DNA from: a virus
DNA length: 41,140 nucleotides
Strand: one strand, 5' to 3'
IMG/VR virus record: IMGVR_UViG_3300007640_007576
Coordinates: 1-41,140 of that record
Position numbers and translations under genes: made by a program. Positions 1,536-25,723 of this stretch are shown here, piece by piece; within the stretch, counting starts at the first letter, position 1; every line of letters starts with the position of its first letter. The notes beneath the pieces were generated by a model, which was given only the letters and a program-made list of their open reading frames with translations, was not told the origin of the DNA and made no database searches.

Positions 1536-2209
1536 GGGGCTACTCGCCCATTGTCGATAAAGTGGCCGTATGTGATAGGCATGGCTGCTTGGAAGAATTG
1601 TTCTAGCCCGTCTGCGTACTGACGGATTTCCCATTGAGCGGTTTCGTCACCTCGGAGGTTGATGAAGTTCATCAGTGCCCGTGCGTTGGTCGTGGCGTAG
1701 AACTCACTGTAGGTAGCTACTGGGAGTACCATGCGTGCTACTTCTTTTGCCACGCCTTCTTCTAGGAGCTTCTCATATGCGTAAAAGCTTCTGTTGTAGG
1801 CGGTCTTGATTTGCTCCATGGAAGGCTTGTAGTCGTCCATCGGCTCGAATGTGTACGCTCCGGGCTTTCCTACCTGTGTCCGCATTTGTTCTGCGTCAGG
1901 AATATACGCTTCAGTCGTCATCTGGGAGTACCGGCCCGAGTATTCGTTGTAGGACCAGCCGATGCGGTGACGGAACCATTCTCGCACTACGAAGATGGGT
2001 GCCTTGATGTGGAACCTGAAGAAGTTGTGTTCAAACGGGGTTCCGTGCTTTTCTCGCATCAGGAAACCGATGAGGCCCTTGTCTCGTTCGCTGAGTTGTT
2101 CGGTTTGGATTCCGAAGCTGACTCGTGCGGCGTTGACTACGCTTAGGTCGTCGGCGCAGGCTGCGTCAAGACGGATGAACCCGTTGTCTAGGATCGGGAT
2201 TTCCGTCAT
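1532..2209 (-). CDS. thyX: flavin-dependent thymidylate synthase
   Basis: ThyX converts dUMP to dTMP using FAD, NADPH and methylenetetrahydrofolate, giving the phage its own dTMP supply. The 225-residue product has the signature region RHRIGWSYNEYSGRYS, flanked upstream by REWF and downstream by PDAEQMRTQ; near the C-terminus are ATTNARALMNFINLRG and QWEIRQYA, the expected substrate- and FAD-binding blocks. The classical signature is RHR-X7-S; here RHR and the aligned Ser are separated by 8 residues, a one-residue insertion. I prefer the ATG at 2209, which overlaps the upstream stop as ATGA and has AAGGAG 11 nt upstream, over the GTG at 2221, which sits directly on that site. It is co-transcribed behind the RmlB-like gene. 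Confidence 0.93.
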   Translation of the reverse strand: MTEIPILDNGFIRLDAACADDLSVVNAARVSFGIQTEQLSERDKGLIGFLMREKHGTPFEHNFFRFHIKAPIFVVREWFRHRIGWSYNEYSGRYSQMTTEAYIPDAEQMRTQVGKPGAYTFEPMDDYKPSMEQIKTAYNRSFYAYEKLLEEGVAKEVARMVLPVATYSEFYATTNARALMNFINLRGDETAQWEIRQYADGLEQFFQAAMPITYGHFIDNGRVAP

Positions 2210-3237
2210 TCGGTTAGCCACTCCTTGTGCGCCATGGTCCAGAGCACAGTTCGCTTGAATGATTCTTCTAGCCCGATCGGAGCGGTCCAGCCGTGCTCCT
2301 TGAGCTTGCTGCCGTCTAGAGAGTAGCGCAGGTCATGACCGGGACGGCTGGTGTGGTAATCTACCATCTCGTACTTTGGTGTGGTATTAAGAATATCACC
2401 GATCATCTTTACGATCTCTAGGTTGTTGATCTCCTGCTCACCTGCAACGTTGAATCGCTGAATGTCCGGTGTGAATTCAGCGTCGCTGTACATTATGGGG
2501 TCTACGTTTTCCAACAGGTACTGAACGGCATCGGCGTGGTTTCGTGCGTGGAGCCACACTCTTGATCCAATGTCCCATGCCCACTCGTCGCCGTCTCCGG
2601 GGCGTCCGTGGACGTGAATGGTTTCGTTGTTGACGATTCGACGGATCACCATCGGCACATACTTCTCGGGGTGCTGACGTTCACCAAAGTTGTTCATGGT
2701 GTTGGTGATAGTGATTGGGACACCGTAGGTGCGCCAGTAAGAGTAGGCGATTGCTTCCTGCGCCGCCTTAGATGCCGAGTACGGGTTGGAGGGGCGGTGT
2801 GGTTCCCCTTCAACATGGTCGTGCCCTAGCGGGGCGGGGCCGTACACTTCATCGGTTGATACTTGAATAAACTTTTCTGGCTCAACGTAACGGGCGTACT
2901 CTAACATGTTGAGAACGAGGTTTACGTTGTTTTGTACAAAGTCAACCGGGTGAGTGATGGACCGGTCTACGTGAGAGTCCGATGCCATATTTACTATGTA
3001 GTCGATGTCACCTAGCTTTTCGATGAGCTGGGAGTGCACTGGTGATCGAAGGTCATGCCAGACGACTTCTACCCGTTTCGGGTCGTAGCCGTCCATGTCA
3101 GTTAACCTTTCAATACGGCCTGAGAACCGCAAGGCGTCCATTACTACAATGTCCCAGTCGGTGTTCTTCAGCCAATGTTCAACGGTGTGTGATCCGATGA
3201 AACCTAGGCCACCGGTTAGTAGTACTCGCTTGCTCAT
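2206..3237 (-). CDS. rmlB: dTDP-glucose 4,6-dehydratase-like nucleotide-sugar enzyme
   Basis: A 343-residue short-chain dehydratase/epimerase. It shows the N-terminal Rossmann motif GGLGFIGSH (residues 9-17), ASDSHVDRSI (85-94), the STDEVYG block (127-133) with the Asp-Glu pair typical of 4,6-dehydratases, and the catalytic Y153-X3-K157 in YSASK. The family makes 4-keto-6-deoxy sugar nucleotides, usually dTDP-sugars, for glycan or antigen synthesis. The start has AAGGAAA upstream. A strong promoter at 3348-3376 and an approximately 100-nt leader with a hairpin precede it, and thyX follows by ATGA overlap. Other dehydratases of this superfamily (for example GDP- or UDP-specific) cannot be excluded. 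It probably supplies a donor for the glycosyltransferases elsewhere in the window. Confidence 0.85.
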   Translation of the reverse strand: MSKRVLLTGGLGFIGSHTVEHWLKNTDWDIVVMDALRFSGRIERLTDMDGYDPKRVEVVWHDLRSPVHSQLIEKLGDIDYIVNMASDSHVDRSITHPVDFVQNNVNLVLNMLEYARYVEPEKFIQVSTDEVYGPAPLGHDHVEGEPHRPSNPYSASKAAQEAIAYSYWRTYGVPITITNTMNNFGERQHPEKYVPMVIRRIVNNETIHVHGRPGDGDEWAWDIGSRVWLHARNHADAVQYLLENVDPIMYSDAEFTPDIQRFNVAGEQEINNLEIVKMIGDILNTTPKYEMVDYHTSRPGHDLRYSLDGSKLKEHGWTAPIGLEESFKRTVLWTMAHKEWLTE

Positions 3238-7444: not shown

Positions 7445-9709
7445 GTGTTGAAAAAATTTTCAAAGTCATTTAAACGTATGGCTAAAGCTTCTTTTGCGCT
7501 ACTTTTAATCACAGCATGGATGGCTCCGGTGCCAGCAGCAGCAGCGACATACACAGTCACCGAAGAATCTGACTGGTATTTCGAAGTTTCGCAGGACAAT
7601 ACCGATGTCGTTATCTACGGTAACTCCAACCGGTCCTGTACGGAATCCGGTGCTGATCCATATTTATGGGTGTACGACCTGTCGGGAACCCTTCTAGCCA
7701 ACAATGACGACGGCAATCACAACAGCACAGATCAGTGTGTTTCGTCAAAGATCGACACCACGCTGGATGCAGGCGTTTATCGACTTCGAGCGGGATATTG
7801 CTGTAGTCAGGTGACTTTGGGATACGACGGATACGACTACGGACTTATCACTGACCTGACGCTTGCAACAAACTTCAGCACCTACAACGGTGTCCGCTTC
7901 ACTTATACGCCCGCATATATTGAGCAGACTATTAACGTTTCTTCATACGCAGGAGAGATTGATTCAATTATTGTTACCCCTCTTGTTAAACGGTCCTACG
8001 ATGTGAATGACTACGTTGCGACACAATATGCCGCATACGATTCTGCTGGGAACGTGCTTCAGGGCAACATAACTTCGTCTGCTCCAACATCTTGGGTTGA
8101 GGTTCCTTCCTTTTGGTTCTCAGCGTCTACCTCTACGAATGTGCAAGATTCAACATCGTGGGACACAGTAAAGATTCGTATCTGGGCAAAAGATGGCGAA
8201 GGTTGGGGAGGGAACTACGGAACCGAAATCAAAGAAGTCGCTTTCAAAGCAAAACTTGATGGGAGCACCGAATGGACAGACCTCACCAACCTGCTCACTA
8301 ATCCTCAGTTCAACTCTATTAACAGTAACTCTGCCCCGAATGGCTGGTCGTCTAATGCTTCGTGGGACACATGCCAAGGTTTGGATTCTTCTACACTTTG
8401 TGGTTTTGTTCAAAACACTTGGACGTGGGCTACACCAGTAACCACAACAACGACCACAACTACAACTACAACTACCACAACAGTTCCGCAATCAATCGGC
8501 CCACCTATGAATCTAACCGGTGAAATTACTGCAGATGGAGTGTTTCTAGATTGGGACGCACCCGACACCGGTAATGTTGACCCTGAGCGTTACGCTATTT
8601 CGTTTAGAATCCCACCTGACGCTGGATGGGGTGTCGCAACAGGGAACGTGGGGGATGAGAATGCCCTTAATACGGAATACACACTTCCTTTTAGCCTCTT
8701 TGAGCAGACGGGCGGTCTTGGTGAAGATTATGTGTTTGACGTTCGATCTGACAATGACACGCTTGCACTTTATTCAGGATGGTCTACTCAAGTAACACTT
8801 ACTGTTTCAGAACCCGTTCCGCCTACAACAACTACCACGGCCACAACCACCACTACTACCACAACAACGTTGCCTCCGACGACAACAACTACTACTACAA
8901 TACCTGTAACGACAACAACGACGTTGCCGCCTACAACTACGACGACGGTAGCGCCTACAACTACAACGACGGAGGCACCGCCATCTACCACTACGACGAC
9001 AACATCAACGACTACAACCCTACCGCCTACGACGACTACGGTAACCCCAACTACGAGTACTTCTTCAACGACAAGTACCACAACTACCACAAGCACGACA
9101 ACAACGCTGCCGCCAACGCCGACAACGACGACGCTGCCGGTAATAACGACCATTCCACCGACACCTGAAGAAGAAAAAGCCGCTGAAACTAAAGTGGAGT
9201 TTGAGGAACTCGGTATTGATACTCAAGGCGTTGAATTGCTTGAGGTTGATGAAGCAGAAGTCAAAGTTGTGGAACAACTAGACGAGCTTGATGAGAAACT
9301 TGCGGAAGATTTCTTGAATGTCGTTGACGGTGAAATCACCACGGAAGAAATCGAAAGCCTTGTCACTGACGAAAACTTTGACAACATCTCTGACGATGCC
9401 AAAGTTGTTCTCGTCGCTGCCGTTAACGAAGCCGACGACGAAGTAAAGGCAGAGTTTGAAGAGACTGTAGATATCTTTGACGATGAAGCTTTTAACGAAT
9501 ATGTCGCTGAGGGGTCTGTAGTCGATACGGAAACTCGGCGTACCGTTGTTGCGGCTGCCGCAGCGGTATCTGTAGCCGCTGCTGCGACATCTGCTGGTCC
9601 TGCTGGTGGAGGTGGTGGCTCTTCCGGTGGGGGAGGTGGAGGAGGCCCAGGCGGTGACTCTGGTGGCGGTAAAGGTAAAAAGGGTAATTCTAGAAGAAGG
9701 TCTCGGTGA
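7445..9709 (+). CDS. secreted multidomain Thr-rich surface protein, 754 aa
   Basis: A Sec signal peptide (basic KKFSKSFKRMAK, then FALLLITAWMAPVPAAAA) should be cleaved near residue 34. Next comes a PPC-like beta domain (YLWVYDLSGTLLANNDDG... DAGVYRLRAG), then a jelly-roll-like domain (to about 300). A first Thr run (about 331-347) leads to a fibronectin III-like domain (about 352-457) and a long Thr/Pro linker (about 459-573). An acidic helical region (about 575-690), an Ala/Val-rich segment (about 696-717), a Gly/Ser run and a basic tail (KGKKGNSRRRSR) finish it. This looks like an actinobacterial exported cell-surface protein, not a virion protein. It is followed at once by a small membrane-protein gene. 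The GTG start at 7445 is uncertain; TTG 7448 or ATG 7478 would also keep a signal peptide. Role unknown: adhesion, exclusion or envelope damage are possible. Confidence 0.85.
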   Translation: MLKKFSKSFKRMAKASFALLLITAWMAPVPAAAATYTVTEESDWYFEVSQDNTDVVIYGNSNRSCTESGADPYLWVYDLSGTLLANNDDGNHNSTDQCVSSKIDTTLDAGVYRLRAGYCCSQVTLGYDGYDYGLITDLTLATNFSTYNGVRFTYTPAYIEQTINVSSYAGEIDSIIVTPLVKRSYDVNDYVATQYAAYDSAGNVLQGNITSSAPTSWVEVPSFWFSASTSTNVQDSTSWDTVKIRIWAKDGEGWGGNYGTEIKEVAFKAKLDGSTEWTDLTNLLTNPQFNSINSNSAPNGWSSNASWDTCQGLDSSTLCGFVQNTWTWATPVTTTTTTTTTTTTTTVPQSIGPPMNLTGEITADGVFLDWDAPDTGNVDPERYAISFRIPPDAGWGVATGNVGDENALNTEYTLPFSLFEQTGGLGEDYVFDVRSDNDTLALYSGWSTQVTLTVSEPVPPTTTTTATTTTTTTTTLPPTTTTTTTIPVTTTTTLPPTTTTTVAPTTTTTEAPPSTTTTTTSTTTTLPPTTTTVTPTTSTSSTTSTTTTTSTTTTLPPTPTTTTLPVITTIPPTPEEEKAAETKVEFEELGIDTQGVELLEVDEAEVKVVEQLDELDEKLAEDFLNVVDGEITTEEIESLVTDENFDNISDDAKVVLVAAVNEADDEVKAEFEETVDIFDDEAFNEYVAEGSVVDTETRRTVVAAAAAVSVAAAATSAGPAGGGGGSSGGGGGGGPGGDSGGGKGKKGNSRRRSR
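8439..9155 (+). repeat. threonine-codon low-complexity tracts
   Basis: Two blocks (about 8439-8482 and 8823-9155) consist largely of ACN codons with interspersed Pro and Ser, written as irregular ACA/ACT/ACG/ACC runs. They encode the extended, probably glycosylated linkers on either side of the fibronectin-like domain. Use of all four Thr codons argues for selection on the protein rather than simple DNA slippage. Confidence 0.85.
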
Positions 9710-12004: not shown

Positions 12005-12364
12005 ATGGAGAAACGCGGCCCAAAGCGACTTGTCAAAGATGCGATCCGTGTCGGTGAGTATGGTGATACTCATTGGCGCTTAGTGCTGTCGTGTTCTCAT
12101 GAGCTAGATAGTAAACGGAAGCCGAAGGTGGGTGAAGACAAAGTTTGCTGCAAGAAGTGTATTTCCTCTGAATCACTTGCTGTTGTAACGGCTCCCGCAG
12201 AGCTTGTCTATGATTTACTTGATCCTGAAGATCCTATGGCAGAGTTGAAGGCAAAGGCCACGATTGCTTCGCATTTTGATGTGTCTTTGGACCAGATTGA
12301 GCTGAGGGGCAGTACTGCGACTATATTTATTGATGCTCAACAGTTGAGGAATATTTTGAGATGA
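12005..12364 (+). CDS. hypothetical protein with Cys cluster, 119 aa
   Basis: A plus-strand gene divergent from recA. The N-terminal half contains CSH (residues 30-32) and CCKKC (48-52), separated by a Lys/Arg stretch, giving a likely small metal-binding unit. The C-terminal half ([27 protein letters not shown]...) is alpha/beta without known motifs. It lacks a Shine-Dalgarno and fits the leaderless pattern. It overlaps the next gene as ATGA, so the two are translationally coupled. No family recognised. Confidence 0.6.
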
Positions 12365-13083
12365 CTGATTTTTTACCTGTTGAGGAAGATGAGGACTTTG
12401 CAACTTGGGAGCGATTTAGGGATAACCCGGAAGTTCGTTGGGTGTTCAATAAGTTGGAAGTCGCTTTACGTCAAGGGCTGGAAGCTGGACCGGCTGGATG
12501 TGCTCCACGGTATGAAGGTTTTTACATTCATCGCCCTGTTTACAATTTATTTGGTATGGGTATTGAAGCATCAAAGTTTGTTTATGAGTCGCAGATGGAG
12601 GAAGACTTTTTGAACAATGCCGTAGTACCTCCCGGTAGCTTTTGGTGTGAGTGGCTAGAGGGTCCACACCTATCTATTGACTTTCAAAAGGACTCCCAGG
12701 GTGATTGGCATACAGTGTCGGTATGGGAAGGATTCCATTCGAGCGATGATAACTTAACTAGGTTTAGTCATTGGGAAAGACTTCCCGAAACAGATGTTCC
12801 TGATATTAACCAATGCTCACATTTCATAAATCTTGTTGATTTGCCTGTCAACGGTATCAATATTGAAACTCGGGAAGGCTTTATTACTGAGATTCATTTA
12901 CGCCATGGCAACGACCCGTTTGAAACTCTTCCGGTCGGTACACGAATTACGCCTATTTGGCAGGACATGGATATTCCTGAAGGTGGCGTGTTTATGCCGA
13001 ACCTGCATGAAGACTTAGAAAAGTACTCTGCGCATGGTCATTTGTCGGATGTGCGTCGAGGGTTTGTCATAGAGACGCCTTGA
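12361..13083 (+). CDS. conserved hypothetical phage protein, 240 aa
   Basis: A 240-residue soluble protein coupled to the preceding gene by ATGA. Notable blocks are RWVFNKLEVALRQG, HRPVYNLFGMGIEASK, PPGSFWCEWLEGPHLSIDF and the later GTRITPIWQDMDIPEGGVFMP. The 'RPVYNL.GMG....PPG.FWCEWL.G.H.S.D' pattern looks like a conserved fold seen in other phage proteins, faintly reminiscent of ATP-grasp-like enzymes, but I cannot assign a function. It ends 3 nt from the stop of the convergent glycosyltransferase gene. Confidence 0.6.
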   Translation: MTDFLPVEEDEDFATWERFRDNPEVRWVFNKLEVALRQGLEAGPAGCAPRYEGFYIHRPVYNLFGMGIEASKFVYESQMEEDFLNNAVVPPGSFWCEWLEGPHLSIDFQKDSQGDWHTVSVWEGFHSSDDNLTRFSHWERLPETDVPDINQCSHFINLVDLPVNGINIETREGFITEIHLRHGNDPFETLPVGTRITPIWQDMDIPEGGVFMPNLHEDLEKYSAHGHLSDVRRGFVIETP

Positions 13084-13086
13084 CAG

Positions 13087-13707
13087 TTAAATTTTGCAGT
13101 CGATAAAGTTTTCTCGGTGCCTGCGGTAATACAGTAGAGGTTCAGGCACATTTGATACCGTAGCCCCGAGGGCTAGCATCCTGTCCCACAGCGCCCAATC
13201 TTCACATGCGGCGTTGCCTACAGCGAACTGCTCGTGTGCCACGTAGCCTGCTTCTTGACCGATAGATGTACGATACATCATTGATCCGTGGTGACCTTCC
13301 CACCGCCAGTAGACATCTCCTTGTCTCATAACATCTGGAAGCTTTGCGTCTCGATGACCCATCTTGTGTTCACCAGTCACCATAATGTGATACGTGACAA
13401 TATCTGTATCTTGCTTCAGTAATGTTTCCACTGCGTCTGAACGTAGCCAGTTGTCTGCACCGATGAACATGGTGTATTCGGTGTCTACTTTCATCAACAT
13501 GTCTTGAAAGTTGTCTACGGTGCCGAGGTTTTTCTCTCGTAGGGTGTATTCGACTTCAGGGTAAACAGCGGGCAGGTGCTTGCAGTCGCCTACGCCGTCG
13601 TCTACAAATAGGATCTTTGCAGGCTGAACTGTCTGGGACAGAATGCTTTCGATACAATGAGCGGCTAAGTGCCCATAATAATATGATGCGATTACTACAG
13701 TTAACAT
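13087..13707 (-). CDS. family 2 glycosyltransferase
   Basis: A 206-residue GT-A enzyme. It has the N-terminal nucleotide-binding pattern TVVIASYYYGHLAAHCIESILSQT, then ILFVDDG, the metal-binding GADN (in place of DxD), and a downstream EDWALWDRM (ED catalytic-base motif) followed by EPLLYYRRH. GT2 enzymes move a sugar from a nucleotide donor to a glycan, lipid or protein; donor and acceptor cannot be read from sequence. It is the last gene of a four-gene operon with methyltransferase, deacetylase and PhyH dioxygenase, starting 1 nt after the dioxygenase stop, and is slightly short for the family. Confidence 0.88.
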   Translation of the reverse strand: MLTVVIASYYYGHLAAHCIESILSQTVQPAKILFVDDGVGDCKHLPAVYPEVEYTLREKNLGTVDNFQDMLMKVDTEYTMFIGADNWLRSDAVETLLKQDTDIVTYHIMVTGEHKMGHRDAKLPDVMRQGDVYWRWEGHHGSMMYRTSIGQEAGYVAHEQFAVGNAACEDWALWDRMLALGATVSNVPEPLLYYRRHRENFIDCKI

Positions 13708-13708
13708 A

Positions 13709-14458
13709 TTAGGGAATCCTAGTTGGGTCGATTTGTTCTACAACACTTCCATCTGACAGATAGTCAGGGTAGTCTTTTACACTATCAGATTTACAGAAGC
13801 CGTTCATGTACGTCATTCTTGGACTATCTGAAACATTAGCCTCGCTGCCGTGAACAATTTTTACTGACCAGATTAGCACGTCACCTTTATTTGCCGTGTA
13901 CTTAGTTCCTGAAAGGTTTCCGCGCTCAAACTGACGTAAGTCTGGTGGGCGATCAAACTCCGGCCAAAGATGTGAGCCTTCTATAAACTCCACGGCCCCG
14001 TTAGTCTCTGTTATGTCATCTACGGCAATAACGGTTTGTAAGTAATCAGTTTCCACCGTCTTTGCAAACTGTGAGCTTTCGCGGAAGATCGTATCTCTAT
14101 GCCAAGCAAAAGTATCTTTGTCTCCGGCTTCCCTGAAGTAAACTTGATTGTTGATTTGTCTAACGTTCCGACCTAAAAGCTCTTTTACAAGCGATACCAT
14201 TCTCGGGTCAATGCGGATAGAGTTTAAGTAATCGCTAGCTAATGCCGGAAAGAAGATTAATGACTTTTTGTTGTGTGCCTGTTCGCTAGGAACGTGGGGA
14301 TAGCCGGATGATTGTATCTGCTCATCTGAAACAGCATACGCTGCGCTCTTAATAGCATCGCACTCTGCGGGCGTGAACACAGAAGGGATTTTGACAATAC
14401 CCTTTTCGTATAATTCACCCTTTTCGTATAATTCGTTTAACCTAGTCGAACGATACAT
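13709..14458 (-). CDS. PhyH-type Fe(II)/2-oxoglutarate dioxygenase (first copy)
   Basis: A 249-residue member of the phytanoyl-CoA dioxygenase family: the iron-binding H120-R-D122 in FAWHRD, the distal H203 in IVHGS, and R214, which should hold 2-oxoglutarate. Supporting blocks are AVEFIEGSH and KGDVLIW. These enzymes hydroxylate small molecules or modified sugars and lipids. The start at 14458 overlaps the deacetylase gene by 17 nt. Residues ELYEKG occur twice in tandem near the N-terminus because of an exact 18-bp duplication (14399-14434). The co-translated neighbours suggest its substrate is the product of the same modification pathway. Confidence 0.85.
   Translation of the reverse strand: MYRSTRLNELYEKGELYEKGIVKIPSVFTPAECDAIKSAAYAVSDEQIQSSGYPHVPSEQAHNKKSLIFFPALASDYLNSIRIDPRMVSLVKELLGRNVRQINNQVYFREAGDKDTFAWHRDTIFRESSQFAKTVETDYLQTVIAVDDITETNGAVEFIEGSHLWPEFDRPPDLRQFERGNLSGTKYTANKGDVLIWSVKIVHGSEANVSDSPRMTYMNGFCKSDSVKDYPDYLSDGSVVEQIDPTRIP
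14399..14434. repeat. 18-bp exact tandem duplication inside the PhyH gene
   Basis: ACCCTTTTCGTATAATTC occurs at 14399-14416 and again at 14417-14434. It adds six residues in frame near the N-terminus of the dioxygenase (YEKGEL repeated) and keeps the gene open. Confidence 0.9.
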
Positions 14459-14963
14459 AGTCACTGTAAATTTTGTAATCGGCGTCTTCAGCAAATTCGT
14501 TACGGACACCCTGCGTTACGGAATACGCTTTCTCATAGCCTGCAGCTTTCACAAGGGCTACAACTCTGTCATCGTACTCGCCGTAAGGATACCTCAAATA
14601 TTTTGTAGGAAAGGGTGCGGTAATTTCTTTGATGATATCTCGATCGGAAAGCTTCGTCAAGTCTCTATGCGACCACGTATGCCAACCAATCTCAAAGTTG
14701 TACAAAGAACACAACTGCTTCACTTGAGATAGTGTGCAGTACCTCTCTAGCTTTGGTACATGTTCTAGGTCGAAAGTGTTATCTTTCCCCATTTCGTTTC
14801 CCATTACGAACATGATCCCTGACTTGCCTTCTAAAATGTCTTGGTTTTCAAAAACGTTTAAGTATACGCCGTCGAAACCGATCGGTTCACCGCACGCCAG
14901 GATTTGCTCCCGTGTGTGATAGTTAGAGTGCTTTTCTGTCCCAATGTTGTGGGCAAGTCTCAT
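14442..14963 (-). CDS. polysaccharide deacetylase (NodB-like)
   Basis: A 173-residue protein with CE4-type motifs: H95-TWS-H99 in GWHTWSHRDL (metal-binding HxxxH), R124-YPYG in LRYPYGEYD, and a C-terminal AAGYEKAYSVT block. Motif 1, usually TFDDG, reads GFDGVY (D31), so the second Asp is absent; the enzyme may be divergent or altered in activity. The family removes N- or O-acetyl groups from sugars. The start at 14963 makes an ATGA overlap with the methyltransferase, preferred over the upstream TTG. It is shorter than most CE4 domains, perhaps a minimal core. Confidence 0.78.
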   Translation of the reverse strand: MRLAHNIGTEKHSNYHTREQILACGEPIGFDGVYLNVFENQDILEGKSGIMFVMGNEMGKDNTFDLEHVPKLERYCTLSQVKQLCSLYNFEIGWHTWSHRDLTKLSDRDIIKEITAPFPTKYLRYPYGEYDDRVVALVKAAGYEKAYSVTQGVRNEFAEDADYKIYSDYVSFD

Positions 14964-15454
14964 CGGTACTCCCAAATATCAATTACATGTAAGTATTCAC
15001 GGTACTGAATTTCAAAGTGACGTATGCGGGTGCCAAAGTTGTAAGGTTTCAACCAGCTTTTGATTCCGGCAATCATGACCAACGTTTCGTGCGTGTCGGA
15101 CGCTGCTTCATGAATCAAGTTAGCCATCGCCGCATGATCATACTGCTCGTAGAGAACACCTGTAGCAATAACCAGATCGTACTTGCTGTCGATTTCTGTT
15201 ACCCGTTCTACCCCGTCAGGAAGACGCTTGGCAGCAGCGTCGCTTATTTCAAAAGCGTGCTTTTCGATCGCTGGAAGGTCCTTGGTTATCCAGCCTTCTC
15301 CAGCCCCAATATCAAGTGCTCGGCTAAAGACTGGGCCTACGTCTTCTAGGACGGCCATATAGAAGTTCTTACGGTAAAGATCTTCGGGGTCTTGCTGGTA
15401 GTTCCAGGGGTCACTGTCTTCGTACCAGTTTTCGAGTTCTTGCTTAGTCTGCAT
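14960..15454 (-). CDS. SAM-dependent methyltransferase, NodS-like
   Basis: A 164-residue class I methyltransferase. It starts with a region resembling NodS (DPWNYQQDPEDLYRKNFYMAVLED, DPW at 15-17) and then motif I LDIGAGEG (47-54), with YDLVIATGVLYEQ as motif IV region. NodS N-methylates a chito-oligosaccharide amine after NodB deacetylation; here the same two activities lie in adjacent coupled genes. That parallel is suggestive only, since NodS-like folds act on many substrates. It is the first gene of the operon. The ATG has no Shine-Dalgarno and sits on a predicted transcription start. Confidence 0.8.
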   Translation of the reverse strand: MQTKQELENWYEDSDPWNYQQDPEDLYRKNFYMAVLEDVGPVFSRALDIGAGEGWITKDLPAIEKHAFEISDAAAKRLPDGVERVTEIDSKYDLVIATGVLYEQYDHAAMANLIHEAASDTHETLVMIAGIKSWLKPYNFGTRIRHFEIQYREYLHVIDIWEYR

Positions 15455-15460
15455 GGTCTT

Positions 15461-15489
15461 ATTGTATCCTGGGGGCTGTATTTAGGCAA
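15461..15489 (-). promoter_or_regulatory. leaderless promoter of the methyltransferase-GT2 operon
   Basis: On the minus strand TTGCCT (15489-15484), 17 nt, TACAAT (15466-15461), AAGACC, then ATG at 15454. It is the only promoter-like sequence I see for the four-gene operon. Confidence 0.65.
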
Positions 15490-16019: not shown

Positions 16020-16256
16020 ATGTTTTCAGTTAAGTCACCGTATTGGTTCAAAAATTCTCCGTGTTCTGGGCAAGATCGTTTATTTTTCTCAAGTAAGTCC
16101 TCGAATCGGCGTCTTGCTGTCAAGGTATGTAATTCTGAATGCGATAATCGTTCTGAGTGTCTGAAGTTTGCGGTTTCAGAAGGAATTACCATCGGTGTTT
16201 GGGGAGGTAAAACAGGACCGGAGTTAGCAAGGCTGGTGGAACATGATGCTGGATGA
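16020..16256 (+). CDS. WhiB-family iron-sulfur transcription factor
   Basis: A 78-residue protein with the four cysteines of WhiB-like proteins (C15, C37, C41, C47) and the turn GVWGG (59-63), followed by a basic/helical tail. Wbl proteins bind a 4Fe-4S cluster and act with the principal sigma factor; they occur in Actinobacteria and their phages, so this gene is the best host indicator here. The spacing between the second and third Cys is CX3C rather than the usual CX2C. It follows a clear AAAGGAG site and a TATAAT promoter and overlaps the next gene by 14 nt. It heads the plus-strand block and may redirect host transcription. Confidence 0.85.
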   Translation: MFSVKSPYWFKNSPCSGQDRLFFSSKSSNRRLAVKVCNSECDNRSECLKFAVSEGITIGVWGGKTGPELARLVEHDAG

Positions 16257-18639: not shown

Positions 18640-19098
18640 ATGTCGCAGACCGATAACTTTGCAATGTTGGTGTCTGAAGACATCAAGAACAACGCTTCTC
18701 AGCAGGATAAAGATTTTCTTCGCCTCCCAGAGAATCAGGTAAAATGGAGAGATGCACTAATCACTATCGTTGAGACGGTCACTGCAAAGATCGCAAGTCT
18801 AGACGAAGAGATTTCTCGCCTTCGTGGAACATATACTACCTTCACGATCGACCCTGCTGCGGGGTTAGAAGAACAGCGCTACAAAGCAGCACGGTTTCGG
18901 TTTTATGCGGAAAAGCGTTTGGTCGAAGTAGACAGGTTGCTTACCCTCGGAGAAGAAGCCGACCCTGAACTGTCGCTTGCCACGTTTTTGCGAAATGCAA
19001 TTGTAGCCCACAAGCAGTGGCATATAGATAACGACATGGTTAATTCAGAAGGCGATGATTGCTTGTATAAAGCTTTAGACGGGGTTTGGGGTTTCTAA
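18640..19098 (+). CDS. conserved hypothetical phage protein, 152 aa
   Basis: It starts 3 nt after the nuclease stop. The product is helical with a likely coiled-coil middle (VETVTAKIASLDEEISRLRG). Its C-terminal half reads 'RFRFYAEKRLVEVDRLLTLGEE...SLATFLRNAIVAHKQWHIDNDM...LYKALDGVWGF', a pattern I associate with actinophage proteins of unknown function. The stop forms a TAATG overlap with the glycosyltransferase gene. Confidence 0.6.
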   Translation: MSQTDNFAMLVSEDIKNNASQQDKDFLRLPENQVKWRDALITIVETVTAKIASLDEEISRLRGTYTTFTIDPAAGLEEQRYKAARFRFYAEKRLVEVDRLLTLGEEADPELSLATFLRNAIVAHKQWHIDNDMVNSEGDDCLYKALDGVWGF

Positions 19099-20195
19099 TG
19101 AAGATTGGGTTTGCTACGAACGACTGGTCTCGTAGTGCTACGGATGCTATGGGTCATCCCGTGATTGGTGGTTCTGGTTTTATTCGCATCGGTCAGTACA
19201 TTAAGCCTTTGCGTGAAGCTGGTTATAATGTCGTGATTGGCATTTTGGCACAGAACAAGTTGACCGGAACGTTCGGTGTTCATTCGTGGGATGGTGTTGA
19301 CTCATTTGATTGTGATGTGATTGTTATGCAACGTTACATGCACATGCAGGTGCTTCCTGACATGAAACGTGCGCAGGCTGCAGGTCAGATCATTTTGAAT
19401 GATGTAGATGACTGGTACTGGGGTCTTAGTGATAAGAATCAGGCCAAGTCGGCGTCAGATCCTGAGGTGAACAAGAGCGAAAACGTTTTGTGGTATAAGA
19501 ACATTTTGGAGCAGTGTGACGGAATCATTACGTCTACTCCATTTCTTCATCAAAAAATGAAGGAGTGGAATCCAAATACTATGCTGCATGGTAACTATGT
19601 GAATCGTTCAAAGTACACCACTCGTCGCATTCATGAAATACATAGCGGTAAGATGGTTGTAGGGTGGATGGGGTCCACTGCTCATAGAAGCGGTGATTTG
19701 GAGATTCTTCAGCCTTATTCAGATGCTATTAGCAAGTTTGCTACGTGGCATCACACTGGACACATGCAGGCTCCTAATATTCCTTTGTTCCATAAGGAAA
19801 TTAAAGTTAGTGCGGGCTGTGTGACGACCCATCCCTTCTTAGCTCCTTATGAGCTGGAGAAGGGGTTCCTCTTTGATGTAGGGATCGTGCCGCTTACAAA
19901 CATTCCTTTCAACCATGCCAAGTCTTATATCAAAGGTCTGGAGTATGCTTGTGGCGGCGTTCCATTTGTTGCTTCTTGGTCACCCCAGTATGAAGAGCTA
20001 GCGGAAGAGCACGGCATCGGTGAGATTGCTCGTGACCCGAAGGATTTCGTAAAGCTTTTAAAGAAGTACCAAGACGTTGATTATCGACAAGAAATTTCAG
20101 ATTTGAATTGGAAGCGGGTCAAGAAATTTGATGTAAAAATTGGGGCGACTCGTCTTATCAAGACGATCAAGAACCTAGTGAAGCGTGCGAGATGA
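19098..20195 (+). CDS. GT-B-type glycosyltransferase
   Basis: A 365-residue protein: MKIGFATNDWSRSATDAMGHPVIGGSGFIRIGQYIKPLREAGYNVVIG at the N-terminus, then VGWMGSTAHRSGDLEIL and a C-terminal GIVPLTNIPFNHAKSYIKGLEYACGGVPFVAS, the donor-binding layout of GT4/GT1-like enzymes. It resembles phage glycosyltransferases acting on virion proteins, DNA bases or host glycans; the acceptor is unknown. The start is taken at the TAATG overlap (19098) rather than the GTG at 19086. It is followed directly by HNH and PhyH genes. Confidence 0.82.
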   Translation: MKIGFATNDWSRSATDAMGHPVIGGSGFIRIGQYIKPLREAGYNVVIGILAQNKLTGTFGVHSWDGVDSFDCDVIVMQRYMHMQVLPDMKRAQAAGQIILNDVDDWYWGLSDKNQAKSASDPEVNKSENVLWYKNILEQCDGIITSTPFLHQKMKEWNPNTMLHGNYVNRSKYTTRRIHEIHSGKMVVGWMGSTAHRSGDLEILQPYSDAISKFATWHHTGHMQAPNIPLFHKEIKVSAGCVTTHPFLAPYELEKGFLFDVGIVPLTNIPFNHAKSYIKGLEYACGGVPFVASWSPQYEELAEEHGIGEIARDPKDFVKLLKKYQDVDYRQEISDLNWKRVKKFDVKIGATRLIKTIKNLVKRAR

Positions 20196-20668
20196 AGCGA
20201 GGTAAGCCTCTAAAGAGAACACCGTTGAAGCGTGGTAGTAGTCAGTTGAAGAGAACTCCTTTAAAGAAGCGTTCCGATAAGATGTCGGAAAAGTATGTGG
20301 GCCGTCGAAGCATTGTTAAGCAACTTCTGTCTGAACGCCCGCATTGTGAAGCTTGTTTGGTGTGGGCTTCTTACGATTATCAGACCGGCAATAGTGATTC
20401 TCTTTTCGTTAAGCATAATAAAAGTAAAGACATTCACGAACTTGTGAATAGGTCACAAGGCGGAAGCATCTTGGAGTATGAGAATCTACTGGCTGTGTGC
20501 AGGCCATGTCACAGTAGAATAACTACAGAACCTTTAATTTCTGAAATGCTTGGCCTTCATTTAAAAAGCACGTCAAACAAAATGTCGCATTTCCTCGAAG
20601 CAGAAAGGGTAAGAAATGCCTGGAAAAACGGAACTCCTGCAGAACCTTATTGGTTCAGCTCTAACTGA
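20192..20668 (+). CDS. HNH-family nuclease-like protein (first)
   Basis: A 158-residue protein with a very basic N-terminus containing repeated K-R-T-P-L-K-R units, then CX2C (52, 55), IHELVNR (H82), N/L-rich block, and CRPCH (103-107). These match an HNH fold with a structural zinc site. HNH proteins cut or nick DNA in packaging, homing or recombination. The gene overlaps the glycosyltransferase (ATGA) and extends 53 nt into the PhyH gene. No intron or inserted flanks are evident, so homing is not supported. Confidence 0.75.
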   Translation: MKRGKPLKRTPLKRGSSQLKRTPLKKRSDKMSEKYVGRRSIVKQLLSERPHCEACLVWASYDYQTGNSDSLFVKHNKSKDIHELVNRSQGGSILEYENLLAVCRPCHSRITTEPLISEMLGLHLKSTSNKMSHFLEAERVRNAWKNGTPAEPYWFSSN

Positions 20669-21515
20669 GCATCCCGATCTACTAGACGAAATCAACAGCC
20701 TATCTGGAGGGTTCGCTGATAGCGATCTTCCATTTTTAGATAGAGAGGAAGTTAACGAATCGTTTCTTTCTGATATCCAGAAGGGATGGAGGCATAACGG
20801 TGTTGTAATTGTTGACTCGTTGATTCCCGACGACATGATTGAAGCATACCGTCAAGACTGGATTCAGCATAATCGTGTCAACCATGATCGTCCTTTGGGC
20901 TACCCTGGCGAGTGTGCTTACTTTCAGGTAGAAAGTCTAATGAATATCGCTACCTATGCTCCATTAAGTAATATCCTTGAGCATCTTATTGGCGATCAGA
21001 TGGGTATTCATTTGAACTTGACTGGTTGGAAGTCCACAGAACGGAACTGGCACCAAGACGGGTATTTGAATCCTGACACGAATAAGGATCATTACTTGGC
21101 TGTGTGGGTTGCATTGGATGATGTGCATGAAGATGCTGGCCCATTTGAGTATGTTCCGGGTAGTCATGTTCTTCCGGTTATTACGCAAGATGCAACAAAG
21201 TCTAGGTTAGAGCCTCATGAGCGAGATGATCCTAACTGGCCTAAGTACTCGGAGCGCTTCCTTACTCCCATGTTTGAAGACATCTTACATCGTGGCAACC
21301 TTTCGACTGAAAAGTTTATCGCCAAGAAGGGTGATGTATTAATTTGGCATGCACGCTTGATGCATCGAGGCGCAATTCCAAACAATCCAGACTTGTGGAG
21401 AGAGACAGCAATTCTCCACTATTCAGGTGTGAATCATCGTCCCGATATGCCACAAGGGTACCAGTATCAGGACGGTGGATGGTTCTTCCCAATCAATCAA
21501 AACATTCCTTTGTGA
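20616..21515 (+). CDS. PhyH-type Fe(II)/2-oxoglutarate dioxygenase (second copy)
   Basis: A 299-residue paralogue of the first PhyH enzyme, with H146-x-D148 in NWHQDGY, H250 in RLMHRGA, and R262. Blocks PFEYVPGSH and KKGDVLIWHARLMH match the family. An extra N-terminal helical region of about 55 residues is present. The start at 20616 overlaps the HNH gene by 53 nt with a weak AAGGG site. Sequence divergence from the other copy suggests a different substrate. The upstream glycosyltransferase and downstream methyltransferase give it similar company to the first copy. Confidence 0.85.
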   Translation: MPGKTELLQNLIGSALTEHPDLLDEINSLSGGFADSDLPFLDREEVNESFLSDIQKGWRHNGVVIVDSLIPDDMIEAYRQDWIQHNRVNHDRPLGYPGECAYFQVESLMNIATYAPLSNILEHLIGDQMGIHLNLTGWKSTERNWHQDGYLNPDTNKDHYLAVWVALDDVHEDAGPFEYVPGSHVLPVITQDATKSRLEPHERDDPNWPKYSERFLTPMFEDILHRGNLSTEKFIAKKGDVLIWHARLMHRGAIPNNPDLWRETAILHYSGVNHRPDMPQGYQYQDGGWFFPINQNIPL

Positions 21516-21516
21516 G

Positions 21517-21897
21517 ATGGCTGCCAATTACGGGACAGCGGCTAAAGCTAAAGCCACAAAGTTACACAGTCTACTTGTGAGGACTCGTGATGGGTTTCGC
21601 TGTCGCTGGTGCGGGGTTCACAAAGATGACGGCAAGCAGATACAGTGCGCTCATATAATCAGTCGGTCTATCTCGGCTACTAGGACTGATGAAAAGAATG
21701 CGGTTGCCTTGTGTGCGTCGTGCCATTGGAAGCAGTCTAAAAACCCGCTGGTTTGGGCGAGATGGCTTGAAGATGAGCTAGGTAGAGAGCATTTAGACGA
21801 TCTGCTGGAACGTGGCGTTTCGGGGGTGAAGGTTGACTGGGGCAGTGAAGCCGAACGCCTACAGTCTATTATTGACGAGATGAATGGAAATGGATAG
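21517..21897 (+). CDS. HNH endonuclease-like protein (second), 126 aa
   Basis: The start at 21517 (MAANYGTAAKAKATKLHSLL) lies 1 nt after the dioxygenase stop. The zinc/active-site set is CX2C (29, 32), CAHIISR (44-50, H46), N61 and CASCH (66-70), followed by an acidic/helical tail. This resembles NinG/HNH-type recombination nucleases. Its position in a block with RecB-like and Rad52-like genes would fit a junction-processing role, but substrate specificity cannot be read from sequence. Confidence 0.78.
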   Translation: MAANYGTAAKAKATKLHSLLVRTRDGFRCRWCGVHKDDGKQIQCAHIISRSISATRTDEKNAVALCASCHWKQSKNPLVWARWLEDELGREHLDDLLERGVSGVKVDWGSEAERLQSIIDEMNGNG

Positions 21898-22266: not shown

Positions 22267-22890
22267 ATGGAAAAGCAGTTACTCAATGTGGGGTGCGGTA
22301 CCCACTATATCGACGGATGGGTCAACACAGATGTGTGGGAAGATCATTCCACAACACCTGATGTTTTGGTAAAGATGGATGAACCGTATCCGTTTGAGGA
22401 TGACACATTTGATGCGATCTATCTCGGCCATGTGCTTGAGCATATTGCGTGGCCGAAGCTGGGTGTCTTTTTGACAGATATGGTTCGCATCGCTAAGCCG
22501 GGTGCCCCGGTCCTTGCTGTCGGTCCTGATGTTCATAAGTGTATTAAGCGGTGGGCTGAGAAACTAGAGCCTTGGGACATGGTTGTTTCTACGATGGAGC
22601 ATCAGGATGTTGACTCGCAAATTTATCACATGTCCGACGATGGTCAATATCTTACTAAGACTCCGCCGGAGTGGTGGGATGGAGCAGCGCACCATTGGAA
22701 TTGCTATGAAGATCGCTTAGAGCTGGTCATGAATACACACTTCGAGAATGTACAGGTTTACTCTCCTTACATTGAGCGGGACCTACCCGGCAACCGACAT
22801 GATTGGTATGACTCACGCACAAACATGCGCTGGCCTACGGTCGGGTACTGGTGGTGGCAATGTGCAGTTATGGGGTATGCGCCGTCATGA
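22267..22890 (+). CDS. SAM-dependent methyltransferase (type 11-like)
   Basis: A 207-residue class I methyltransferase with TTTTAGGAG-like upstream sequence (AGGAG). Motif I is LNVGCGTHYIDGWVNTDV, followed by YPFEDDTFDAIYLGHVLEHI (acidic loop and motif IV), then LAVGPD. The family methylates small molecules, sugars or lipids; no DNA-methylase motif (such as DPPY) is present. The C-terminal half is Trp/Tyr-rich. The stop overlaps the next ParB gene by ATGA, so it may belong functionally to the ParB/PAPS-reductase cassette or to the glycan set. Confidence 0.8.
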   Translation: MEKQLLNVGCGTHYIDGWVNTDVWEDHSTTPDVLVKMDEPYPFEDDTFDAIYLGHVLEHIAWPKLGVFLTDMVRIAKPGAPVLAVGPDVHKCIKRWAEKLEPWDMVVSTMEHQDVDSQIYHMSDDGQYLTKTPPEWWDGAAHHWNCYEDRLELVMNTHFENVQVYSPYIERDLPGNRHDWYDSRTNMRWPTVGYWWWQCAVMGYAPS

Positions 22891-23669
22891 TCCATAACAT
22901 CGCTTCAAATATTCAGTCGTTGGCTGTAGACATTGAGCTACTGAAGCCTCTTGAGGTTAACGCACGTCGTGGTAATGTTGATGCAATCATGGCGTCTTAC
23001 AACAAGTTTGGACAAGTGAAGCCCATTGTGGCCGTAGAGGATGGCGATAAACTTTTAGTTATCGCTGGCAATCATCAGTTAGAAGCTGCTAAGCGTTTAG
23101 GTTGGCAAGAAATTGCTGTGTCCATCGTTGATTTAGATTCAGAAGACGCTCTTGCTTTCTCGCTGGCAGACAATAGGATTTCTGAGCTTGGTGAGACTGA
23201 TGAAAGCGCTCTTATCGACTTGCTATCGGATGCTGTTAGCTTGGACGAAGATTTTTACAGCACCCTTGGTTGGGACGATTTTTCGATTGCCACGATTGAA
23301 AACAATGTAATTTCTTCGCAGGTATCAAGTGCGCCTAATGACGGTTGGACTGCCCCAGAGATCACGGTAAACAGGGTTCCTGAAGAGAACAACGTTCCTG
23401 CTTTCGTGAGTGACAGTACAGATGAGGCCCCAACTCAAACGTTCAACCCTGAAGGTGTAAGCACTGATACGATTGTGACTCAAGGAAGCACCACAGTCGG
23501 TGCGGCTGGTAGCAAGAACGTCGCTATTCAGTTTACTCTTGTTTTCGAGAACACCGATCAACAGGCGGGCTGGTACCGCATTCTTCACAAGTTGAAGGAG
23601 AGTCCTGTGTACGAAGGCGCTACAACGACAGAACTTTTGTTTGATTTCTTTGACCAGCATCTGGAGTAA
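22887..23669 (+). CDS. ParB-like protein (first)
   Basis: A 260-residue protein starting MIHNIASNIQSLAVDIELLKPLEVNARRGNVDAI. The ParB/Srx-fold core is at 44-100: VKPIVAV...LLVIAGNHQLEAAKRLGWQEIAV, then AFSLADNRISELGE. The usual G.HR pattern reads GNHQ, so the Arg of the CTP/NTP-binding box is changed. The C-terminal part (about 190-260) is a separate domain with QFTLVFENTDQQAGWYRILHKL. Phage ParB-like proteins act as DNA-binding or NTP-hydrolysing factors. It starts by ATGA overlap with the methyltransferase and is 5 nt from the PAPS-reductase-like gene. Confidence 0.83.
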   Translation: MIHNIASNIQSLAVDIELLKPLEVNARRGNVDAIMASYNKFGQVKPIVAVEDGDKLLVIAGNHQLEAAKRLGWQEIAVSIVDLDSEDALAFSLADNRISELGETDESALIDLLSDAVSLDEDFYSTLGWDDFSIATIENNVISSQVSSAPNDGWTAPEITVNRVPEENNVPAFVSDSTDEAPTQTFNPEGVSTDTIVTQGSTTVGAAGSKNVAIQFTLVFENTDQQAGWYRILHKLKESPVYEGATTTELLFDFFDQHLE

Positions 23670-23674
23670 GTCTC

Positions 23675-24844
23675 GTGCCTCGTAAGCAAATGTATTTGGA
23701 TATAAATTGTGTAGAGGCTGCTAGGCAGCGAATTCGTCACGTTTATGATATCTTTGATACAGTTTGCGTTCAGTTTAGTGGCGGTAAAGACAGTACGGCT
23801 GCGCTGTATCTTGCGAAAGAGGTTCATGAAGAGCGTGGGCTTGGACCTGTCAAAACGATTTTCCGTGACGAAGAGATCATTTCTCCTGCAGCAGAAGAGT
23901 TTGTTACTGAAGTAAGTAACTACGATTGGGTTGACATGGAATGGTACTGTCTCCCTCAGCTGCAAGAAGTTTGGTCCATGGGTACCCGTGAGCTAGTTTT
24001 GTTGTGGTCGGCGTTTAGGGAAGAGTGTGGCTTGCTGGTCCGGGACTTTCCGCCAAACTCTATTCGGGCCGAGCATTTTGGATTGTCTGGTAATCTACCC
24101 CTCCCTAAACGAATAGATGAGTATACAATGCAGGGCAAGCGTGGCCGAACTGCGTTTATTACCGGAGTAAGGGCGAATGAGTCAATGGTCCGGTACCGAT
24201 CTGTTACTCAGAAGCTTCACGAAAATTACATCAATCGTCCTCAGGGTTTACCCAAGTCAATTCCACTACGGTTTGCAAAAGTTCTATACGATTGGACTTC
24301 TGATGATGTTCTTAAGTTTATCACAGAAGAGCATGGTGCTCCTTATTGCAAGTACTATGATTACGCTATGTTGGGTGGAGCAAATCAACGAGTTGGTACG
24401 CCCTTGTTTTCTACTGCAGCTAGAAGGTTGACTGACGTAATCAAGACCGAGCCAGAGTTTTACGATCGGCTAGTTGAAACGTTCCCTGAGATAGATACTC
24501 AGCGTCAGCTCTGGGGAGAGTACGATATAGAAGCGCTCATAGATGATTTTGTTGCAGATGGGTGGGATGGCGTTAAGGAATGTATCGAAATGCATTTTAT
24601 TGATGCCGACTATAAGCGTCTAGCTTTTTCTTTTGCAGATAAGTTTAGAACATCACATAAGAAAGACCCTTTTGCATATCCGATTGATCATCTAGTTCGA
24701 ACCTTGCTTCTGAATTCCGTTGTGGGGAACCCTTCCCCAGTTGGTCCGCAAACGATTGCACACAAGAAGAGGATGCAGGCTCTCTATCAAGATATAGCTG
24801 ATGCCGATAGCCTTGACTTGCACGACGATTTTAGGTTAAGTTAA
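23675..24844 (+). CDS. PAPS-reductase-family PP-loop enzyme (IbrA-like)
   Basis: A 389-residue protein with the PP-loop SGGKDS (35-40) near the N-terminus in VCVQFSGGKDSTAALYLAKEV, followed by RDEE, ITGVRANES...R and LYDWTSDDVLKFI. This is the adenylate-activating fold of PAPS reductases, DndC and IbrA. No C-terminal ECG-type Cys for true PAPS reduction is visible, so a non-metabolic role is likelier. The GTG start has GGAG 8 nt upstream (ATG 23690 is an alternative). It sits between two ParB-like genes with 5- and 4-nt gaps. E. coli IbrA/IbrB pairs the same two families, with effects on prophage gene expression. Confidence 0.85.
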   Translation: MPRKQMYLDINCVEAARQRIRHVYDIFDTVCVQFSGGKDSTAALYLAKEVHEERGLGPVKTIFRDEEIISPAAEEFVTEVSNYDWVDMEWYCLPQLQEVWSMGTRELVLLWSAFREECGLLVRDFPPNSIRAEHFGLSGNLPLPKRIDEYTMQGKRGRTAFITGVRANESMVRYRSVTQKLHENYINRPQGLPKSIPLRFAKVLYDWTSDDVLKFITEEHGAPYCKYYDYAMLGGANQRVGTPLFSTAARRLTDVIKTEPEFYDRLVETFPEIDTQRQLWGEYDIEALIDDFVADGWDGVKECIEMHFIDADYKRLAFSFADKFRTSHKKDPFAYPIDHLVRTLLLNSVVGNPSPVGPQTIAHKKRMQALYQDIADADSLDLHDDFRLS

Positions 24845-24848
24845 GTAA

Positions 24849-25376
24849 ATGTACATTTCAGTTTCTCCAAATAAATTGCAGCCTTCTTTTTGGGGTTCAG
24901 TGAACTATGTTGTTTCACCGGACTTCAATAGATTGCGTACCTCTGTTGAAAAGTTTGGCATACTTCAACCAATTGTATGTCAAGCATCTACTGCATGTAT
25001 CATTGATGGGTTCCATCGTTGGGAGATTGCTAAGCTTCTAGAGCTAGAAGAAGTCCCTATTGTAAAGGTAGACGTGGATGATGTTGAGGCAGCGATACTC
25101 CACGTGAACCTGAACCGGAACCGTGGCGTTGTAGTCAATAAGTTCTTGTCAGAGCTTTTGCGAGAGTTGTTTTTAGATAACGATATTGATGGTGAAGATT
25201 TCCAAGATCAGCTAGGCTTAGATGATGATGAGTTTATGTTGCTCATGGAAGGTTCTTTAATCAAGATGCGTAAGATTAAAGCACATAAGTATTCGCCTGC
25301 CTGGGTGCCGATTGAATCGGCAACAGGAGAGAGCGTTAAGATTGAGCGACCGACGGGCGATCCCGAGTCGCTGTGA
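24849..25376 (+). CDS. ParB-like protein (second, IbrB-like)
   Basis: A 175-residue ParB-fold protein: YVVSPDFNRLRTSVEKFGILQPIVCQ, IIDGFHRWEIAKLLELEEVPIVKV (D53, H56, R57) and LHVNLNRNRGVVV. Unlike the first ParB-like protein it keeps the intact G-F-H-R box. The short length and 'IIDGFHRW' resemble IbrB. The C-terminus carries HKYSPAWVPIES. It lies 4 nt after the PAPS-reductase-like gene. The mazG gene follows with its AGGAG site overlapping the end of this gene. Confidence 0.82.
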   Translation: MYISVSPNKLQPSFWGSVNYVVSPDFNRLRTSVEKFGILQPIVCQASTACIIDGFHRWEIAKLLELEEVPIVKVDVDDVEAAILHVNLNRNRGVVVNKFLSELLRELFLDNDIDGEDFQDQLGLDDDEFMLLMEGSLIKMRKIKAHKYSPAWVPIESATGESVKIERPTGDPESL

Positions 25377-25387
25377 CAGGAGATAAA

Positions 25388-25723
25388 ATGGGAATGGAAT
25401 TTAATGCGTATCAGGTTGGTGCTAAGACGACCGCTATTTATCCGAAGGAATCAGCGGTTGAGTACCTGACTCTTGGTCTCGCTAGCGAAGCAGGCGAAGT
25501 TGCTGACAAGGTAAAGAAGCACATTAGAGACAGTGACGGGGACTATACTGATTCGGTATTCCGCTCTGCTATCAGTAAAGAAATCGGTGATGTGCTTTGG
25601 TATGCTGCCGTGCTCGCCTGGGAGCTTGGTATTGATCTCAACGACATTGCTAAAGAAAATATCGAAAAGCTTTTTGACCGATACGATCGGAACGTGATTC
25701 AGGGGTCCGGGGATGAGCGATAA
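25388..25723 (+). CDS. mazG: MazG-like nucleotide pyrophosphohydrolase
   Basis: A 111-residue all-alpha NTP pyrophosphatase with the EXXE-(n)-EXXD metal site: E34-A-G-E37 in LASEAGEVADK and E65-I-G-D68 in KEIGDVLWYAA. It hydrolyses (d)NTPs to monophosphates, adjusting nucleotide pools or, in the host, ppGpp-type signals. The start at 25388 has AGGAGATAAA upstream. The 3' end and stop fall in a 61-bp tandem duplication shared with the start of the next gene. Confidence 0.9.
   Translation: MGMEFNAYQVGAKTTAIYPKESAVEYLTLGLASEAGEVADKVKKHIRDSDGDYTDSVFRSAISKEIGDVLWYAAVLAWELGIDLNDIAKENIEKLFDRYDRNVIQGSGDER

Follow-up and report, generated by a model that had tools for sequence, protein, structure and literature searches.

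The 41,140-base window analysed here (positions 1 to 41,140 of the IMG/VR virus record IMGVR_UViG_3300007640_007576) carries four adjoining genes that form one cassette, conserved across ~90 IMG/VR loci and in ~16 phage backgrounds that otherwise have little or no gene content in common. The first gene encodes a NodS-like class I S-adenosylmethionine methyltransferase and is followed by genes for a deacetylase with CE4/NodB homology, an optional PhyH-type Fe(II)/2-oxoglutarate dioxygenase and a short GT2 glycosyltransferase. The methyltransferase, the deacetylase and the GT2 enzyme probably act on one amino sugar. Taking chemistry and acceptor together, we tentatively read the block as an amino-sugar tailoring cassette whose likeliest acceptor is a virion protein of the head or tail.

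Three single-protein searches of IMG/VR all returned the same neighbourhoods, and profile searches led by three of the four genes were then carried out. In the methyltransferase-led search, the deacetylase was present in 76 of the 77 newly fetched loci, and the single exception (L285) stops at a contig end; the two genes are thus always paired where this search allows a test, which answers the concern that they might occur independently of each other. Scored by a strict rule, the deacetylase-led search covered 77 testable loci and put the methyltransferase next to the deacetylase in 74. Of the remaining three, two carry it with a small change in spacing, and only L153 is without it. The same search found the GT2 gene linked in 54 and the PhyH gene in 42 of 61 testable loci, PhyH being absent from the other 19. 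The PhyH enzyme is also cleanly missing from L004 and L005, close relatives of the window whose other three cassette genes are 95–98% identical to it, and we therefore regard it as an optional step. When the GT2 gene led the search, both the methyltransferase and the deacetylase were present in 64 of 77 loci; nine of the remaining 13 begin at or near a contig start, and L210, L235, L237 and perhaps L239 are real GT2-only loci.

The backgrounds share fewer than two flanking open reading frames (ORFs) pairwise and range in GC content from 0.26 to 0.67; their number, 16, is a rough count obtained by single-linkage grouping on at most 10 kb of flank, with many near-duplicate contigs among them. 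One background is T4-like, with genes for a clamp loader, DNA polymerase, UvsX and a replicative helicase (L145). The cassette is not a feature peculiar to actinophages, being present in T4-like and other phages too. The GT2 gene is inverted in one group of loci and L236 has the order GT2-PhyH-methyltransferase-deacetylase. In pairwise comparisons, the identities of the cassette genes rise and fall together (r 0.69–0.88). Recurrence over so many loci shows that the order and content of the cassette exceed chance, and the cassette is probably mobile, exchanged among unrelated aquatic phages. Each family is common alone and the GT2 gene stands without the methyltransferase and deacetylase in three or four loci, as a chance cluster of unrelated morons would allow. 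We nevertheless rejected such a cluster as highly improbable, given the recurrent order in ~16 backgrounds, the obligate methyltransferase-deacetylase pairing, the set that stays complete though permuted in L236, and the gene fusion in bacteria described below. Two GTDB species genomes (Verrucomicrobiales and Chloroflexi metagenome-assembled genomes, MAGs) have the whole cassette on short contigs (L079 and L080), which are probably viral contigs binned by mistake. In the window, a gene for a phrog_3577 protein (12361–13083, plus strand) directly adjoins the cassette at its 3′ end. It has relatives no more than a few kb from the cassette in three unrelated contigs (L032, L045 and L074) and may be a further member.

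A profile and pattern scan for the deacetylase across 84,980 species genomes yielded nine relatives. Two of these belong to the complete, probably viral cassettes of L079 and L080 described above. The other seven look chromosomal (three Xylophilus, Aureimonas, Neomarinimicrobiota, Patescibacteria and Flavobacterium). In all seven, the deacetylase domain stands N-terminal to a GT2 domain in one polypeptide, and a homologue of the methyltransferase lies directly upstream. Four of these methyltransferases, scanned alone (Aureimonas, Neomarinimicrobiota, Patescibacteria and Flavobacterium), pass the NodS family PF05401 (30–42 bits against a cut-off of 24), and one scanned against NF041650 reached 47 of a cut-off of 300. 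The phage GT2 profile scored 77–100 bits on the fused bacterial domains compared with 20–32 on other GT2 proteins of the same loci, indicating that the phage and fused enzymes correspond. It is this direct fusion of deacetylase and GT2 behind a NodS-like methyltransferase that leads us to assign the three enzymes to one amino sugar. Together with the recurring neighbourhoods, it upholds the earlier proposal that the three are a conserved functional unit. In its strong form the bacterial unit is rare: among samples drawn from three phyla it occurs in 1 of 299, 1 of 198 and 2 of 100 genomes, and in the first two samples the sole match is the sample's own centre genome. An origin as host-borrowed genes was rejected because the deacetylase subfamily is so rare in genomes.

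The methyltransferase is structurally nearest to NodS. Its family profile had NodS as the best match in the PDB (3ofj, 1.3e-9; next match 2.5e-5), in an alignment that includes the DPW N-terminal segment, and this N-terminus is conserved in the family as DPW..Y....D..R. An AlphaFold2 model of the protein (pLDDT 96.2) gave NodS from Bradyrhizobium (3ofk) as the top Foldseek matches (TMq 0.73–0.81), and NodS again came first in the VIA structure comparison (Z 18.4, rmsd 2.3, 161 aligned; next entry Z 16.1). The window protein falls below all Pfam cut-offs (14.6 bits for PF05401 against 24), and the best PF05401 E-value among 29 phage methyltransferases is 0.0026. The first-pass annotation had called this enzyme NodS-like, and profile, Foldseek and VIA agree in placing it there and not in an unrelated family. 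By analogy, it would transfer a methyl group to the nitrogen of an amino sugar.

The deacetylase has a CE4 fold and scores above the gathering threshold of PF01522 (4e-11; 43.3 bits against 23.1). Its AlphaFold2 model (pLDDT 95.9) retrieved IcaB, PplD and PgaB as top Foldseek matches; in VIA the nearest structures were BA0330, IcaB, PplD and PgaB (Z 15–17.7 over 162–174 residues; IcaB, PplD and BA0330 at about Z 17, with top values of 17.2–17.7), with other CE4 enzymes at about Z 7–10. The label NodB-like thus holds for the homology domain, but NodB proper was set aside as the nearest relative in favour of these better structural matches. Conserved motifs comprise an N-terminal HN.G...H.NY in the phage members, FDG, HxxxH and YP.G, with F34-D35-G36, H99/H103 and Y129-P130 invariant, and the enzyme is predicted to be active. 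We did not conclude that FDG marks a dead enzyme: it is invariant, and the second Asp is missing from PdaA-type enzymes too; the PdaA structures aligned here read FDNG. Separately, the deacetylase fold is matched (VIA Z 11.3 over 137 residues) by a virion protein, the turret of Haloferax tailed virus 1, and a CE4-like fold may therefore already exist on a virus particle.

The PhyH enzyme (PF05721, 8e-27; 95.3 bits against 22) has its iron triad of H137, D139 and H220 and the 2-oxoglutarate residue R231 invariant in 28 relatives, and its nearest solved structures are EctD and a leucine hydroxylase. An 18-bp unit, GAATTATACGAAAAGGGT, is tandemly repeated in the part of its gene that encodes the N-terminus (14399–14434; NELYEKGELYEKG). 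The GT2 protein (PF00535, 2e-10; 41.3 bits against 23.3) has an invariant DXD-type motif, ADN, and further residues in both halves that are invariant across 28 relatives (GADNW, HHGS and Y.R.H.EN). It had been cast as the counterpart of NodC, an assignment that we rejected on its size (206 aa) and on its profile matches in the PDB, 3bcv and TagF; the enzyme is short and apparently soluble.

A plausible pathway can be drawn from these four activities. The GT2 enzyme would add an N-acetylated amino sugar to an acceptor in the cytosol, the IcaB-like deacetylase would free the amine of that sugar, and the NodS-like methyltransferase would then N-methylate it. The PhyH enzyme, where present, would hydroxylate the product. 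With a virion protein as acceptor, the particle would bear a methylated and probably cationic sugar. The involvement of one sugar, its identity, its N-methylation, the order of the steps and the acceptor are what we infer from the genes. When the chemistry is considered alone, a single de-acetylated, methylated amino sugar is likely.

The position of the cassette in MW202801, in L151 and, more loosely, in L158 suggests the particle as a possible target. In the metagenomic record MW202801, the block, which begins one gene past that annotated as major capsid protein, stops ahead of a gene for a phage stabilization protein. In L151, a terminase gene is followed by one in the portal position and by that of a capsid protein, which matches a solved major capsid protein (8.6e-5). 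After a single small ORF comes a glycosyltransferase, PhyH, methyltransferase, deacetylase, GT-B and 4,6-dehydratase series, and then tail genes including that of the tape-measure protein. The GT2 end of the L158 cassette adjoins packaging genes, and ~5 kb further on lies a capsid gene recognised by its match to annotated capsid proteins. In addition, phages whose hosts apparently belong to different phyla, as judged from WhiB in the window and in L104 and from the T4-like replication genes of L145, carry similar GT2 enzymes, and an acceptor borne by the phage itself would fit this distribution better than an envelope glycan. On the strength of the capsid-gene adjacency in L151 and MW202801 and of this spread, we favour a virion protein as the acceptor, as the leading candidate in a choice that stays tentative. 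The wider proposal, that a horizontally exchanged cassette, kin to a bacterial surface-glycan or flagellin tailoring unit, gives unrelated aquatic phages of whatever host phylum a coat of N-methylated and sometimes hydroxylated amino sugar on their capsids or tails, is more doubtful. A 754-aa ORF of the window (7445–9709, plus strand) has a signal-like N-terminus, long mucin-like stretches rich in Thr and Pro, and a basic tail rich in Gly, gave no family match and is a possible glycosylation target; large lipoprotein-like ORFs with Thr-rich starts lie upstream of the cassette in L104 and L107.

Several points weigh against a methylated amino sugar on the virion. Substrate, product and activity are all predictions from the genes, and the likeness of the methyltransferase to NodS does not prove N-methylation. 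The second Asp of the FDDG motif is a metal ligand in characterised CE4 enzymes, and in the phage and bacterial members of the present family it is replaced by Gly. In the window the cassette is near recA and does not adjoin capsid genes, and T4-like phages carry it in their replication region. Finally, in three bacterial genera (Xylophilus, Aureimonas and Flavobacterium), as verified by family search, Wzm and Wzt, the latter with a Wzt_C domain, are encoded directly upstream of the methyltransferase and the fused deacetylase-GT2, and several of the bacterial relatives accordingly look envelope-directed. This context and the proximity to replication genes, which suggests that expression may be early, are what the main alternative would predict, namely that the cassette edits a host envelope glycan or a lipid-linked precursor in the cytosol, either changing a receptor against superinfection or capping a growing chain. 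The jumbo phage contig L134, in which the cassette stands amid many glycan genes, would fit as well, and there is a precedent for capping in WbdD of E. coli O9a, whose terminal methyl-phosphate cap can halt O-antigen growth and marks the chain for export by Wzt (PMC3482155). This alternative has difficulty, however, with one GT2 type that keeps many invariant residues although its phages seem to infect hosts of different phyla, which have few envelope glycans in common, and with a cassette that lacks a flippase, a polyprenol transferase or any membrane enzyme; we consider it possible but doubtful. Other bacterial relatives stand in a setting like that of protein glycosylation: FlgK, FlgL and FliW are encoded directly upstream in the Neomarinimicrobiota genome, as found by family search, and, judged by sequence, in one more genome of the same phylum.

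Glycosylation of phage DNA, in which a methylated amino sugar on a base would guard against nucleases, appears very unlikely. Genes close to the cassette include recA in the window and, in L145, those for the T4-like DNA polymerase, UvsX and helicase, but its bacterial relatives lie in surface-glycan and flagellar loci, and the PhyH enzyme is both optional and nearest to small-molecule hydroxylases (EctD). Moreover, a search for a hydroxymethylase-like gene of the thymidylate-synthase fold (PF00303) gave no match in 11 of 12 records, including a 173-kb T4-like one and one of 211 kb; this lowers the DNA reading, although some of these records may be fragments and other routes to a base anchor exist. 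That the enzymes instead make or modify a small molecule or a free nucleotide sugar, with no macromolecule decorated, is also unlikely, if less so. PhyH enzymes and class I methyltransferases often act on small molecules, and by structure the PhyH enzyme comes closest to EctD and an amino-acid hydroxylase; against this, the deacetylase is nearest to enzymes acting on polymers or wall linkages, and the GT2 enzyme is a near-constant partner.

The four ORFs are real and lie as first annotated, and the overlaps and abutments reported for them were borne out, with an ATGA overlap between the methyltransferase and the deacetylase, a 17-nt overlap between the deacetylase and PhyH, and a 1-nt gap between PhyH and GT2 (Table 1). 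For the deacetylase, the ATG was preferred over the TTG at 14975 in a program-made ORF list because relatives begin M(R/K)LAHNIG, which makes the TTG unneeded; the PhyH start agrees with the length of its relatives (230–260 aa). The dN/dS of the methyltransferase between the window and L006 is ~0.09, and dS is saturated for the other two genes compared. The single promoter proposed for the block is in doubt: the site TTGCCT-17-TACAAT matches the consensus at only 9 of 12 positions, six promoter-like sites were observed in the region compared with 3.9 ± 1.7 in shuffles, a number no higher than expected, and use of the site would yield a nearly leaderless mRNA. The window also encodes a terminase, portal and head protease, together with Rad52, ThyX, thymidine kinase, SSB, a primase/helicase and, by sequence, RecA. 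These genes suggest a tailed phage, and the WhiB gene suggests that its hosts are Actinobacteria. The window has no DNA similarity to named phages, the single named record with most of the cassette in protein searches is MW202801, and a plasmid search gave no match for the deacetylase.

Table 1 Cassette genes and associated features in the window.
Feature	Coordinates	Strand	Remarks
NodS-like class I methyltransferase	14960..15454	-	first gene; 164 aa; ATG 15454, TGA 14962-14960
CE4/NodB-homology deacetylase, IcaB/PgaB/PplD-like	14442..14963	-	173 aa; ATG 14963, TAG 14444-14442
PhyH-type Fe(II)/2-oxoglutarate dioxygenase	13709..14458	-	optional member; 249 aa; ATG 14458
Short GT2 (GT-A) glycosyltransferase	13087..13707	-	last gene; 206 aa; ATG 13707
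Promoter-like site TTGCCT-17-TACAAT	15461..15489	-	9/12 consensus match; 6 nt before methyltransferase start; weak
WhiB gene	16020-16256	+	PF02467 9.2e-12; present in L104 lineage too
NDP-sugar 4,6-dehydratase (RmlB-like, STDEVYG)	2206..3237	-	TIGR01181 2.7e-77, below cut-off
Second glycosyltransferase (GT-B-like)	19086..20195	+	phrog_7162 1.3e-25

The pathway is not self-contained, as had been suggested, since the cassette includes no donor-sugar synthesis and PhyH is often missing. A 4,6-dehydratase encoded elsewhere in the window is a possible donor-sugar partner. Its relatives are linked to the cassette in three backgrounds, and in L156–L158 the dehydratase gene overlaps the methyltransferase start by 11 nt, creating a five-gene operon. 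The second glycosyltransferase is another possible partner. Its distant relatives (mostly 22–27% identity) adjoin the deacetylase in three loci (MW202801, L151 and L153) and are close to the cassette in two more (L150 and L158). A second PhyH-type gene (20616–21515, plus strand) lies between HNH-type ORFs (20192–20668 and 21475–21897), near this glycosyltransferase gene and a second methyltransferase gene (22267–22890), and its relatives adjoin the inverted GT2 gene in L106, L107, L109 and L118. Further along, consecutive ParB-like, PAPS-reductase-like, ParB-like and DUF932 genes (22851–26715) possibly serve DNA modification or host takeover.

Among known systems, the NodC/NodB/NodS set of rhizobial Nod-factor synthesis likewise joins a GT2 enzyme, a CE4 deacetylase and a NodS-type methyltransferase. 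The cassette differs in its IcaB/PgaB-like deacetylase, its 206-aa GT2 protein unlike NodC, its additional PhyH enzyme and its carriage by phages; the Nod system acts on a chitooligosaccharide, which the substrate of the cassette is not known to be, and no Nod-type acyltransferase was noticed among the cassette neighbours, although no search was aimed at one. The HxxxH and YPYG motifs of IcaB, PgaB and PplD, the CE4 enzymes nearest in solved structure, are kept in the cassette deacetylase, which differs from them in having FDG in place of FDDG, in its smaller size (173 aa) and in its pairing with a NodS-like methyltransferase. The bacterial unit corresponds by homology and gene order to three members of the phage cassette, but in it the deacetylase is fused to GT2, in some cases together with TPR or additional GT2 domains; there is no PhyH gene beside it, and it is chromosomal, in O-polysaccharide-export or flagellar loci. 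WbdD resembles the setting of several bacterial relatives in that a glycan-end modification is tied to Wzm/Wzt export; it is, however, a kinase-methyltransferase that makes methyl phosphate and has no such deacetylase or GT2 partner. In mycobacteriophage Che8 and its relatives, phage-encoded glycosyltransferases have been linked to glycans on the major capsid protein (PMC11256854). Phage-encoded glycosyltransferases are common to both cases, but that report does not mention a set of deacetylase, NodS-like and PhyH enzymes, and for the present phages virion glycosylation is a prediction. Single viral deacetylases have been reported as auxiliary metabolic genes from mangrove viruses (PMC6460857). 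Phage glycosyltransferases and virion glycosylation are therefore already known; the fixed four-gene set is apparently undescribed, in that no account of it or of its bacterial relative was found in the open-access papers searched, subscription papers lying outside, which does not prove that none exists.

Sugar genes are common in phages and have usually been viewed singly, with no idea of product or target. A fixed set of enzymes predicts a specific chemistry, by which the role of such sugar morons becomes testable, and the four cassette proteins are small and apparently soluble. Its occasional adjacency to capsid genes and its recurrence in unrelated phages suggest that the cassette may provide a shared sugar coat for particles or infected cells. 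If the target is the particle, virion glycosylation would extend well past the mycobacteriophages, with a defined and transferable machinery.

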